Assembly: GCF_003024525.3 (NCBI RefSeq)
Contig: NZ_CP035934.2
Coordinates: forward strand, 1,364,001 to 1,428,000
Length of the DNA stretch: 64,000 bases
Reading direction: 5' to 3'
From: Acinetobacter cumulans
Lineage (GTDB): Bacteria > Pseudomonadota > Gammaproteobacteria > Pseudomonadales > Moraxellaceae
Each line of letters opens with the position of its first letter. Position 1 is the first letter of the stretch. A program made the translations under genes and the position numbers. Shown in pieces: positions 6,778-15,553 of the stretch. The notes below the pieces were generated by a model. It had not been told where the DNA came from. It did not search any database and saw only the letters and a program-made list of their open reading frames with translations.

Positions 6778-6854
6778 GGGCCTATAGCTCAGTTGGTTAG
6801 AGCAGCGGACTCATAATCCGTTGGTCCACAGTTCAAGTCTGTGTGGGCCCACCA
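6778..6854 (+). tRNA. tRNA with CAU anticodon, probably tRNA-Ile2
   Basis: A complete 77-nt cloverleaf. The acceptor stem GGGCCTA pairs with TGGGCCC (one G-T). The D arm is GCTC...GAGC, the anticodon loop CTCATAA has CAU at 6812-6814, the T arm is CACAG/CTGTG, and CCA is encoded. The strong GG/CC acceptor and the GACTCATAATC context resemble E. coli tRNA-Ile2, whose C34 is changed to lysidine so that it reads AUA. By anticodon alone it could be called elongator tRNA-Met. Its last 13 nt and its terminator are duplicated at 15495, which marks it as the integration site of the following island. Confidence 0.93.
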
Positions 6855-6900
6855 TATAAAACAACCACTTAGGTGCATTAATCCTAAGTGGTTTTTTAAT
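6842..6900 (+). repeat. 59-bp direct repeat, left copy (putative att site)
   Basis: This covers the last 13 nt of the tRNA, a short spacer and the tRNA terminator. It is identical over 59 bp to 15495-15553. Integration of a mobile element into the 3' end of a tRNA by a tyrosine recombinase leaves exactly this arrangement. The two copies would therefore be the attachment sites bounding an island of about 8.65 kb. Confidence 0.85.
6865..6897 (+). terminator. rho-independent terminator of the tRNA
   Basis: A nine-base-pair stem CCACTTAGG/CCTAAGTGG with a nine-base loop, followed by six T. It lies ten bases after the tRNA and forms part of the duplicated 59-bp segment. Confidence 0.9.
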
Positions 6901-6965
6901 ATAAAAATTATAGGTAGCGAATAGGTAGCACAAAAATAATAACTTCTTATTTAAAGGATTGAGCA

Positions 6966-7422
6966 ATGAGTTATATATTTCCATTTCTGCACTCTGTAAA
7001 TCTTTCGCCAAGTAAAGATAGAATATAGAGTCAGCATCAATCTGACATTATTAAGTCTGGTGATTTAAATGAAGATTTATCAATTCTATCTACAATACAG
7101 CTGATAACTTTTTACACTTTAAGTAATGAAGAGATTCTTCAAGCCAATGAAAAAGAGATTCTTGCTGCATATAAGCGTGCGTGTATGTTGTTAGTCAATG
7201 ATTTAAATCAAAAAAAAGTCGTATCAAAGTAGAAATTAAGAAATTAGGCCGTGTAGATAAGAAATCTTTTTTATCTGTATTAGAAAAGCATGACTATGTT
7301 TCTTTTAAAGATATACAATATTGGGGTTTGTTTGAAGATTCATTGTCTGAGTTTGTAATCACACTAAATAGCTTTAAAAAATTTGCTGAGTTTAGGCAGC
7401 TGACTACTCATAATCTATCTAT
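6966..7422 (+). pseudogene. decayed gene of unknown function, cut by the IS element
   Basis: A frame opens at the ATG at 6966 after AAAGGA, starting MSYIFPFLHSVNLSPSKDRI. It meets a TAG at 7026-7028, then reads on in the same frame (SDIIKSGDLNEDLSILS, NEEILQANEKEILAAYKRA) to an eight-A run at 7210-7217. There the sensible frame shifts to SRIKVEIKKLGRVDKKSF and continues as YVSFKDIQYWGLFEDSL. The IS element at 7423 truncates it. One in-frame stop, one frameshift and one truncation point to a dead gene. I do not recognise the product; its place beside the tRNA would suit an island backbone gene. Confidence 0.6.
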
Positions 7423-8461
7423 GGCTTTGTTGCACAAACCTACCTCTAAGGGCTTATTCAGCAATATAATTCTAAAATGAATAAGCCCACACCTAAAATT
7501 TATCGTACAACCAATTGGTCATCCTACAATCGCGCTTTGATCAATCGTGGTAAATTAACGATTTGGTTTGATCCGAAAATGCAATGGTATGCACAGTCAC
7601 AAGGTAAACATGGTCGCAATCAAACTTATTCTGATGCTGCTATCCAATGCTGTCTGATGATTAAATCTCTATTCCGTCTGTCTTTACGTATGGTCAATGG
7701 CTTTGTTCAAAGTCTCATTCATCTTTGTAGATTAGATTGGACAGCCCCAGATTATTCCACTATTTGTAGAAGACAAAAGCATATTGATATTGCAATTAAT
7801 TATCAAAAAAGCAGTAATGGTCTCCACCTACTTGTCGATTCTACTGGCTTAAAGTTTTTAGGTGAAGGTGAATGGAAACGTAAAAAACATCAGCCTGAAA
7901 ATCGTCGCCAATGGCGTAAATTACATATTGGTATCGATGCTGAAACCCTTCAAATACGTGCTATTCAGCTCACAACCAACAATGTGAATGATTCACAGGT
8001 GCTTGGTGATTTACTTGATCAGATTCCAGAAGAAGAACAGATTGACTCCATCTATACTGATGGGGCTTATGACACCAAGCAATGCCGTCAGCTAATCGCA
8101 GACCGACAAGCGCATGCGGTGATTCCACCAAGAAAAAATGCGAGACCTTGGAAAGATACAAAGATTAGCTCGCTAGAGCGAAATGAATTACTTCGAACCG
8201 TTAAACGTTTAGGCAGGACACTATGGAAAAAATGGTCAGGCTATCACCGTCGCAGTTTGGTTGAAACCAAGATGCATTGCATCAAATTATTAGGCGAAAA
8301 ATTAATGGCAAGAAGCTTTCCCAGTCAAGTAAATGAAATTCATGCTCGTGTAGCCCTATTAAATAAATTTACGGAAATTGGCCGACCACATACCCAAGTT
8401 ATGCCTTAAATTTTAGCGACTTAGGATAACTCTACCTTTAAAGACTCTATGCAACAAAGCC
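7423..8461 (+). mobile_element. IS5-family (IS903 group) element, IS17-like
   Basis: A complete insertion sequence of 1039 bp. Its inverted ends begin GGCTTTGTTGCA on the left, matched by the reverse complement of TGCAACAAAGCC on the right. It carries one transposase gene. Size, ends and protein resemble IS17 of Acinetobacter (about 1040 bp), though I cannot confirm identity without a database. IS903-group elements normally create a 9-bp target duplication. Here the flanks are TCTATCTAT on the left and TTTTCTTTG on the right, which do not match, so the DNA on at least one side was rearranged after insertion. Confidence 0.85.
7477..8409 (+). CDS. IS5-family DDE transposase
   Basis: A 310-aa transposase of the IS903 group. 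It starts MNKPTPKIYRTTNWSSYNRAL, with the family's N-terminal block SDAAIQCCLMIKSLFRL. The DDE residues are visible as the first Asp in LLVDSTGLKF, the second in YTDGAYDTK, and the Glu in the Y(2)R(3)E-like block YHRRSLVETKMHCIK. The length is full and there is no internal stop, so the protein should be active. The ATG lies 54 bp inside the left end of the element. Confidence 0.93.
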   Translation: MNKPTPKIYRTTNWSSYNRALINRGKLTIWFDPKMQWYAQSQGKHGRNQTYSDAAIQCCLMIKSLFRLSLRMVNGFVQSLIHLCRLDWTAPDYSTICRRQKHIDIAINYQKSSNGLHLLVDSTGLKFLGEGEWKRKKHQPENRRQWRKLHIGIDAETLQIRAIQLTTNNVNDSQVLGDLLDQIPEEEQIDSIYTDGAYDTKQCRQLIADRQAHAVIPPRKNARPWKDTKISSLERNELLRTVKRLGRTLWKKWSGYHRRSLVETKMHCIKLLGEKLMARSFPSQVNEIHARVALLNKFTEIGRPHTQVMP

Positions 8462-8553
8462 TTTTCTTTGATTAGAGCAACAAGATTAGGCGAATAGTGT
8501 TGTGTGCCTACTAATGTTCCAGCTTTTGCTTTGTTGTAGCAATTTGAAAAGGG

Positions 8554-8670
8554 TTACATGGAAATACCACGCTGTCGAGCAGTTTCAGAGACATTGTCTT
8601 GATTTGATTCAATCGCTTTGATTGCTTCAGCTTTGAATTCTGCTGTATAAAACTTTTGTTTTTTTCTCAT
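8554..8670 (-). pseudogene. IS3-type transposase OrfA remnant
   Basis: A 38-codon frame starting MRKKQKFYTAEFKAEAIKAI and ending ...ETARQRGISM, then a stop. This is the N-terminal helix-turn-helix of an OrfA from an IS3-type element (the family pattern is yT.EFK.EAv). It has its own ribosome site (TTAGGAG upstream of the ATG) and about 60 bp of the element's end. Everything after the first 38 codons is missing, so it is a dead fragment. It abuts the IS17-like element region, which suggests successive insertions and deletions. Confidence 0.7.
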
Positions 8671-14659: not shown

Positions 14660-14755
14660 ATTGAATAGCCACCATTCTCCTAGACAAATTTCGTCTATTC
14701 TGTCACTGATACAGTAGAGCATTTATGTGTATCGTGGTAGCATTTATCAATGATT

Positions 14756-15247
14756 TTAAACCTTAATCATTCCACCTATAATTAAGTCAATTATTGAATC
14801 GCCATATTGCTTTAAACCATCAATATCACTCGGATTTGCAAGAAAACGTAAAGCACCATTCATGATCATGCCAATGATGTTATGCCCCGTATTTTCACAA
14901 TCCAAATTGGCTCTAAAAAAACCAAGTTCAACACCGTGTTTTAAGTAATTGGCAGTTAAAATGCCGCCCATTTGCATAACACCTTGCACAAATTGAGTAA
15001 GTTCGGCATCAATTGAAGTCGCTTCAAGTAACAGCAACTTCAAAGAGAGAGGATTTTCTTGAGCAAACTGTCTTAAACGTTCAGAAATATGCTGACATTG
15101 CTCACGATACTCTTCGACATTCTTTACCGCCTGAGGTGTATTTTCACCAGAGAGAAGCGACATAATTTTTTGCATAGTATCAGAAATGACATGCTGCAAG
15201 CCCATAGTATATTGTCGAAAATATTGATGAAATTTGTCTAGGTTAAA
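14756..15247 (-). pseudogene. TetR-family regulator remnant lacking its DNA-binding domain
   Basis: The open part reads MGLQHVISDTMQKIMSLLSG onward for 149 aa and ends LIIGGMIKV. It matches the C-terminal ligand/dimer domain of a TetR-type repressor (TQFVQGVMQMGGILTANYL, LGFFRANLDCENTGHNIIG). Reading upstream in the same frame continues sensibly as WFNLDKFHQYFRQYT to a TAG near 15267, and no helix-turn-helix is found beyond it. The DNA-binding domain is therefore missing and the gene is a fragment, although an N-terminally shortened protein could still be made from the ATG at 15205. It lies between jetB and the right repeat. Confidence 0.65.
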
Positions 15248-15253
15248 CCATTG

Positions 15254-15310
15254 TAAAAGAGCATACTAAAAACGATAATCGCCTCTATATTGATGTTGAA
15301 TGCTCTTTTA
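15254..15310. repeat. 11-bp inverted repeat around a 35-bp core at the TetR breakpoint
   Basis: TAAAAGAGCAT at 15254-15264 is matched by ATGCTCTTTTA at 15300-15310. The element sits just where the TetR homology ends. It may be a scar of a small inserted element or a protein-binding site. Confidence 0.45.
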
Positions 15311-15494
15311 GTAAAAGCTGTATATTGTCAAAATTTAATAGAGTTATAAGGGTAGTGGGGCAGTTTGGTGGTGGAAAAACTGTTATTTGATTAAAAAAAC
15401 AACACTTAAACTATGTATCCTGGCGTGTATCCTAAATATTATGAAAAGTAATTAATTGATTAAAAACAAAAGGGTAGGTGGAGGTTTTCGTCCA

Positions 15495-15553
15495 TGTGGG
15501 CCCACCATATAAAACAACCACTTAGGTGCATTAATCCTAAGTGGTTTTTTAAT
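15495..15553 (+). repeat. 59-bp direct repeat, right copy (putative att site)
   Basis: Identical over 59 bp to 6842-6900: the last 13 nt of the tRNA, spacer and terminator. The bases to its left (GTCCA) do not rebuild the rest of a tRNA, so this is not a second gene. It marks the right end of the tRNA-bounded island. Confidence 0.85.
15518..15550 (+). terminator. duplicated tRNA terminator
   Basis: The same CCACTTAGG/CCTAAGTGG stem and six-T tail as at 6865-6897, here without a tRNA in front. It could now stop transcripts leaving the island on the plus strand. Confidence 0.75.

Follow-up and report, generated by a model that had tools for sequence, protein, structure and literature searches.

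The locus described here raises the question of what kind of system is encoded by four consecutive genes that lie between two copies of a tRNA 3' end on an Acinetobacter chromosome (genome G000, contig C1, 1364001-1428000; this whole stretch of 64,000 nucleotides is the window, and other genomes and loci are denoted by G and L numbers). The initial annotation recognised an operon composed of a structural maintenance of chromosomes (SMC) ATPase, a kleisin, a KITE protein and a Toprim protein, and equated this composition with Wadjet (JetABCD). The composition itself was borne out, whereas the equation with Wadjet was not, because only the Toprim protein rose above the noise of the PADLOC models (JetD3, 25 bits) and both the gene order and the size of the nuclease differ. 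The locus is best read as an SMC system of the Mks lineage whose operon is permuted and encodes a short Toprim nuclease, and which is mobile in Acinetobacter. Its parts are as follows.

9070..9759, plus strand: short MksG/JetD-like nuclease of the Toprim type, 229 aa in its present form (library scans, alignment to relatives)
9725..9876, plus strand: remaining C-terminal stretch of this nuclease, read in a second frame and closing with ...RRLEQESFLYDQ (alignment with the unbroken G920 copy)
9867..12773, plus strand: short MksB-like SMC ATPase, 968 aa (NCBIfam, profile alignments, motif check)
12757..14133, plus strand: MksF/MukF-like kleisin, 458 aa (hhalign, fold comparison)
14126..14659, plus strand: MksE-like KITE subunit, 177 aa (Pfam PF21980, hhalign)

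The start of the SMC gene was set at the ATG at 9867 and not at the beginning of the TTG open reading frame (ORF) from 9786, because the SMC starts of the relatives align there. The motifs that had been read from the sequence are intact: GRNNNGKT (Walker A) at residue 39, SQSGG at 856 and IIVDEI (Walker B) at 888. The SMC and kleisin ORFs overlap at 12757-12773, and the kleisin and KITE ORFs at 14126-14133; the overlap claimed for all four genes holds for these pairs but not for the Toprim ORF: its stop at 9759 leaves a distance of 107 bp to the SMC ATG, and only the shifted frame reaches the SMC gene. The KITE label was confirmed by the Pfam MksE family (PF21980), which gave 54.5 bits against a cut-off of 27 and was also passed by all three relatives tested. 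PDB sequence searches with the SMC, Toprim and kleisin proteins returned only noise, as did a further profile search, so a comparison of folds was needed. For the predicted structure of the kleisin, Foldseek ranks 1-8 were all MukF or JetA chains (best E 1.8e-4), and superposition of the model on MukF gave Z 14.6 (7nyw, 169 residues) and 14.4 (1t98, 244 residues), in agreement with the earlier kleisin label.

The family placement was based on the comparison of each subunit with Mks and Wadjet yardsticks. Three of the four yardstick MksB proteins exceed the NCBIfam Mks cut-off of 1,900 bits (1,991-2,003) and the fourth scores 565; the model, NF040859, carries the name MksF, although the protein it represents is an SMC of 926 residues. 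Since no Pfam family matches these kleisins, the yardstick MksF proteins were named by their position in the operon. The alignment of the window SMC with the four short MksB proteins spanned 828 columns, at a probability of 99.7% (E 1.6e-26), and that with a wider MksB set, which includes two loci found through the window SMC itself, 875 columns (E 8.9e-48); on NF040859 the window SMC reached 36.5 bits, far below the cut-off. In hhalign comparisons, the KITE protein matched MksE at a probability of 97.4% versus 45% for JetB, the kleisin matched MksF at 95.9% (E 6.4e-9, 381 columns) versus 0.1% for JetA, and the Toprim protein matched the short Toprims of other Mks operons at 96.4% versus 91% for JetD. 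The tree of the SMC heads separated the window lineage together with MksB from JetC at 100/100, the lineage itself being supported at 91/95, while the full-length tree, built without JetC, split the window lineage from the MksB group at 100/100. The members of the lineage were gathered through their likeness to the window, and this accounts by construction for part of the cohesion of the lineage.

The PADLOC models gave a consistent picture. On the window operon they returned JetD3 at 25 bits, JetD1 at 16 and JetC2 at 17, the last within the coiled coil, and nothing for the kleisin and KITE proteins, whereas two control Wadjet operons scored 785/315/1450/506 bits (L136) and 709/275/1557/447 bits (L151) over the four Jet subunits. 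Wadjet types II and III were compared through the JetC2, JetC3 and JetD3 models of PADLOC; the use of JetC2 as a probe for type II was discarded, as 59 of 120 genomes and also 9 of 14 controls gave matches that were coiled coils. Wherever four genes could be read around a match of the JetD3 model, the operon had the order A-B-C-D. On these sequence comparisons, the operon appears to belong with MksBEF, on a branch separate from Wadjet as PADLOC models it. The arrangement is described in no title or abstract found by our literature search, and an earlier description is possible.

The Toprim gene of the window carries a change of frame that was absent from the initial annotation. The ORF as it stands contains the EN motif at residue 129 and DxD at residue 186. 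The alignment with relatives follows this ORF as far as about residue 215 and from there runs on in a second frame as far as 9876, which places the change near 9.72 kb, in an A-rich run, and explains why the window ORF lacks the C-terminal EQE motif. The shifted frame is still open and carries LEQESFL; its last residues are LEQESFLYDQ, and motifs of the LEQE type close the proteins of the family. In the relatives the Toprim gene is one ORF, including the Acinetobacter copy in G920 (268 aa), and EQE is kept in 16 of 16 (15 plus G920); the full set of catalytic motifs is present in 15 of these. Through a profile of seven JetD proteins aligned to 8b7f, the EN motif corresponds to E236 of MksG (chain residue 342) and EQE to E349/E351 (chain residues 455 and 457). 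In the accessible text of PMC10123090, E236 and D279 are metal ligands of MksG and E349/E351 are proposed nucleophiles.

The fold of the nuclease was predicted from the protein of locus L021 (pLDDT, the predicted local distance difference test, 85.2; the first 80 residues were poorly modelled). Its best match was MksG 8b7f (Z 13.0, 149 residues, root-mean-square deviation 3.2 Å), with residues 82-258 of the model aligned to MksG 216-377; JetD 7til followed at Z 10.3, and topoisomerase VI-A and Spo11 at about Z 10. No family match to the JetD arm (CAP/DUF3322) was obtained for the Toprim protein in Pfam and PADLOC scans, and about 80 residues precede the Toprim half, compared with about 210 in JetD and MksG. 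The model suggests a short Toprim that lacks most of the N-terminal arm of JetD and offers nothing of comparable size in its place.

Comparison with G920 gave ratios of nonsynonymous to synonymous substitution (dN/dS) of 0.106 for the SMC, 0.064 for the kleisin, 0.040 for the KITE protein and 0.14 for the N-terminal part of the Toprim (72.7% identical), all of them rough because dS is 1.35-2.05, near saturation; the C-terminal part of the Toprim is 46% identical, with saturated synonymous sites. These values (0.04-0.14) are roughly indicative of purifying selection on the operon genes. With the operon under such constraint, the frame change would be either recent or an assembly error. Unless it is such an error, the nuclease encoded in the window has probably been disabled or weakened by a recent mutation.

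It is quite conceivable, if short of an even chance, that the nuclease is whole in the cell, the change being an assembly error or bypassed by slippage. The position in an A-rich run and the open shifted frame that still encodes the terminal motif speak for this reading. A scan for frame breaks with 81 ORFs of relatives, covering 17,842 window bases, bears on it in both directions: it gave two candidates, one in the Toprim gene, seen with two queries, and a weaker one near 24,000, seen with a single query over 22 residues. The gene would otherwise be an isolated lesion, but the assembly does not look error-ridden either. The lower identity of the C-terminal part to G920 also counts against an intact gene. 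An assembly generally rich in frame errors was considered and found unsupported by the two candidates in the scanned bases, and a programmed -1 frameshift at the A-rich run was ruled out, as the continuing frame is the other one.

Seventeen distinct operons of the lineage were found, the window included: besides the window and G920, they come from two plasmids (Methylophaga thalassica, 320 kb, and Photobacterium damselae, 599 kb) and from gammaproteobacterial chromosomes or metagenome-assembled genomes (MAGs), among them Aliiglaciecola (L018 is the operon of A. lipolytica), Paraglaciecola, an Alteromonadaceae strain, Cycloclasticus, Methylococcales and a Moraxellaceae MAG. Loci that are nearly identical entered the count a single time (L018/L019/L020 of Aliiglaciecola, Paraglaciecola and the Alteromonadaceae strain, hereafter the L018 group; L003/L023), as did loci on the same contigs (L006/L013/L016, L007/L014/L022, L008/L015, L019/L049). 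The adjacent order Toprim-SMC-kleisin-KITE is present in 14 of the 17, one of which has its KITE gene cut by a contig end; two break off behind the SMC gene where the contig ends (L014, with the SMC cut short, and L021), and on the Photobacterium plasmid a DUF5406 gene and an ORF of unknown function are inserted between SMC and kleisin (L002, 8929-9703). Two genomes hold two divergent operons of the lineage each: G608 (L051, L055) and G807 (L049, L056).

The distribution of the lineage is sporadic. A search with a single protein found it in 1 of 119 Acinetobacter genomes, the window itself, and an alignment search in 4 of 175, two full-length (window and G920) and two partial and weak. In the class, 8 of 369 genomes matched, four of them weakly; in the phylum, 28 of 398 matched, of which seven, including the window, had E <1e-60, all in the same class. 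Weak matches were left out (4 of the 8 class genomes, 21 of the 28 phylum genomes, mostly MksB, as well as G012 and G928). Among genome contigs, the search with the SMC protein alone returned no relative and the alignment search eight loci. Phage records yielded no relative, none of the 90 pattern matches in viral contigs was confirmed, and a DNA-level plasmid search with the operon gave no match. The DNA similarity to G920 is 73.9% over 5,605 bp and covers window positions 9081-14654, that is, the operon alone; the intact operon there lies at a different locus, and no tRNA was found in that stretch. As the similarity is limited to the operon and the tRNA is missing, the operon appears to move as a unit to different places.

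In the window, the operon occupies an island whose remaining features are listed below.

6778..6854, plus strand: CAU tRNA gene, the integration target (ARAGORN; sole tRNA in the window)
6842..6900, plus strand: 59-bp repeat, copy 1, formed by the tRNA 3' end and a terminator-like hairpin (exact match by script)
7477..8409, plus strand: IS5-family (ISAha1-like) transposase (NCBIfam IS5_2, E 2.6e-123)
15495..15553, plus strand: 59-bp repeat, copy 2, the distal boundary (exact match by script)

The tRNA was labelled Met by ARAGORN, and its anticodon fits Met or Ile2. The exact copy of its 3' end and terminator 8.65 kb further on, pointed out in the initial annotation, was recovered as the longest exact repeat shared by the two places: 59 bp at an offset of 8,653 bp, for which the chance expectation is negligible. 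Between the repeats lie the insertion sequence (IS) material that had also been noted, consisting of the IS5 element and remnants, and the four plus-strand genes. The IS5 element is up to 96.8% identical to plasmid copies, with similarity over about 7423-8462. A minus-strand fragment at 8540-8675 resembles transposase debris by eye, and a minus-strand ORF at 14756-15205 (149 aa), whose start appears to be missing, has weak TetR C-terminal scores. No integrase score was obtained among the ORFs of at least 80 aa between the repeats, and the island may be a remnant or may depend on the help of another element.

A 53-60 bp match to the repeat was present in most of the Acinetobacter genomes listed for the repeat search. 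In 20 stretches taken from 17 Acinetobacter genomes, the tRNA and one repeat lay inside the stretch in 11, the tRNA occurred with no repeat match at the threshold used in two, and the repeat without the tRNA in one. Three more (G022, G051, G038) carry the repeat twice, at distances of about 24, 23 and 37.5 kb, and all three have a tyrosine integrase (Phage_integrase and Arm-DNA-bind_3) just inside the distal repeat. Because of these integrase-bearing islands, the CAU tRNA is a recurrent integration site in Acinetobacter. The islands correspond to L096/L097 (G022), L098/L099 (G051) and L104/L105 (G038), with IS-type genes in L099 and L105. In G043 (L101), the same left-flank genes are followed by the tRNA, a single repeat and then the right-flank gene; this resembles an empty site, although the junctions do not correspond exactly, since in the window a photolyase and further DNA separate the distal repeat from the right-flank gene. 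The photolyase-like gene (15956-17389) lies directly outside the distal repeat, and in G043 the gene that begins at 19250 in the window follows the repeat within 900 bp. In G009, 285 bp beside the repeat (L102 9873-10157) share 74% identity with the right-hand end of the island described here, and this genome may hold a related element with different cargo. The sporadic presence and the other islands between the same repeat thus support a mobile, tRNA-bounded island, and the contrary pattern, with the locus present here in all related strains and the repeat absent, was not found.

At least five of the 17 operons have further defence genes beside them: a subunit of a type I restriction system (L017), HsdM (L021), SMODS and S_4TM of the type known from the cyclic oligonucleotide-based antiphage signalling system (CBASS; L018 group), GmrSD with a RE_endonuc protein (L050), and a Gabija-like pair of UvrD and OLD-Toprim (L051). 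A divergent WYL regulator accompanies at least four of the 17 (L003, L014 and L056 by Pfam, the L018 group by similarity). Both counts are lower bounds, because selected neighbours only were scanned.

Taken together, we consider it probable that the locus is an SMC-nuclease operon of four genes, from the MksBEF lineage, which spreads horizontally and restricts circular DNA. This reading is based on the homology of the subunits, the active-site motifs in the relatives, the conserved operon, the purifying selection, the sporadic distribution and the defence neighbours. For Wadjet, the accessible parts of PMC10586767, PMC12647877 and PMC10512200 describe a motor that extrudes a circle to completion, after which the nuclease acts. 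By analogy, the SMC, kleisin and KITE proteins would assemble into a motor that draws in DNA by loop extrusion. If the DNA is a small closed circle, the extrusion would go to completion and activate a dimeric Toprim nuclease, which would cut the circle, and incoming plasmids would be lost. The operon would thereby act in defence. In one published structure of JetD, the N-terminal CAP arms block the cleft in an autoinhibited state. The short Toprim lacks most of this arm, so autoinhibition could not work in the same way; a nuclease without the long arm of JetD must have a different on/off control, which might lie elsewhere, e.g., in docking to the motor. According to the available text of PMC10586767, plasmids of roughly 100 kb escape Wadjet; the plasmids that carry the lineage (320 and 599 kb) exceed this size, which fits the proposed mechanism and proves nothing.

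Several results weigh against this reading. The Toprim gene is frame-changed in the window copy itself, the DxD motif is not intact in L050, and the dS values are close to saturation. The kleisin model is mediocre (pLDDT 70.7, predicted template modelling score 0.42), and its helical part scores nearly as high with unrelated bundles (STAT2, Z 13.6, helical part only). The failure of the kleisin to align with JetA is uninformative, because MksF likewise fails with JetA (0.2%). The N-terminal half of the window SMC also matches Wadjet-I JetC, over 396 columns (96.8%, E 2.3e-10; 51 columns with a smaller profile), so this comparison leaves room for kinship with Wadjet. Finally, 12 of the 17 operons had no defence neighbour among the 17 proteins scanned, some of which were not neighbours.

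Restriction of phages instead of plasmids, e.g., by abortive infection as in Lamassu-like SMC systems, appears unlikely. The neighbours are mostly anti-phage genes (CBASS-type, GmrSD, Gabija-like, type I restriction), and WYL regulators co-localise with phage-defence systems in the accessible text of PMC9122601. The top PADLOC score of the SMC was LmuB (E 7.9e-5), a weak match which lies in the coiled coil and is no higher than coils generally give, and the Toprim motifs match those of JetD and MksG. Moreover, the kleisin and KITE subunits are, as far as we know, not parts of Lamassu.

It is even less probable that the operon is a chromosome-organising MksBEF condensin with a vestigial Toprim, the window copy having no nuclease and serving only to fold the chromosome. 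MksBEF, its closest motor family, acts on the chromosome of P. aeruginosa (PMC10586767, accessible text), the window nuclease is frame-changed, and selection on SMC, kleisin and KITE appears strong. However, every relative encodes an intact Toprim with EQE, the N-terminal part of the window Toprim itself retains a low dN/dS, and the presence in 2 of 175 Acinetobacter genomes, on plasmids and islands, is unlike that of a housekeeping gene. Least credible is that the operon is a divergent form of Wadjet, be it type I, II or III, as suggested by the four shared subunit classes and by the JetD, JetD3 and JetC matches given above. The gene order, nuclease size, PADLOC scores and SMC tree (100/100) set the operon apart from Wadjet-I, the comparison with types II and III being that through PADLOC models.

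Beyond the favoured reading of a mobile, circle-restricting MksBEF-type operon, we propose only tentatively, as a minority view of our own, that MksBEF motors with arm-less Toprims in two gene orders form a separate lineage of SMC complexes that cut circular DNA under a control unlike that of JetD. Such an armed form could be ancestral, with housekeeping MksBEF derived from it by loss of the nuclease, or MksBEF could have been armed independently. The relation of Wadjet to other SMC complexes is described as unresolved in the accessible text of PMC10586767, with the proposal that MksBEF arose from JetABCD by loss of JetD. A MksBEF-type motor that still has, or has newly acquired, a nuclease makes this proposal testable. 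Since PADLOC hardly recognises the lineage, annotation with its models would miss such operons.

Among known systems, Lamassu shares an SMC-like ATPase in a defence operon and differs in that only the weak coiled-coil LmuB scores were obtained here, with no LmuA match for the six window proteins scanned with PADLOC; to our knowledge, it has neither kleisin nor KITE. Wadjet I (MksBEFG) shares SMC, kleisin, KITE and Toprim in one operon and the same nuclease fold with EN and EQE residues. It differs in the length of JetC (about 1,120-1,160 aa versus 968) and JetD (about 400 aa with the N-terminal arm versus about 265), in PADLOC scores of hundreds of bits per subunit in the control operons where the models barely respond here, and in gene order, A-B-C-D against D-C-A-B. 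The canonical order kleisin-KITE-SMC-JetD was present in six of six complete Wadjet operons (L131, L135, L136, L137, L151, L155) and in L152, with a split SMC ORF.

MksBEF of the Pseudomonas type resembles the window operon in its short SMC (917-959 aa in the yardsticks) with a profile match over the full length, in the MksE family of its KITE protein and in the kleisin profile. It differs in the order kleisin-KITE-SMC as opposed to Toprim-SMC-kleisin-KITE, in the nuclease gene added here, and in the NCBIfam Mks model, on which the window SMC reaches only 36.5 of 1,900 bits. A likeness was also found in three sister operons with the order kleisin-KITE-SMC-Toprim: L143 (3770-9259), L005 (4198-9662) and L004 (3205-9737), of which L005 (Neptuniibacter) and L004 (a Pseudomonas amygdali megaplasmid) are on plasmids of 172 and 972 kb. 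They share a short MksB, MksE (L143 and L005 pass Pfam) and Toprims of 287-308 aa that end in EQE and are those matched by the window Toprim at 96.4%; PADLOC gave no match for the Toprims of L143 and L005, and Pfam assigned that of L143 to DUF7281. As the sister operons have the unpermuted gene order and a separate SMC clade (split 100/100), Mks systems with a short Toprim appear, judging by these sequences, to exist in two gene orders.

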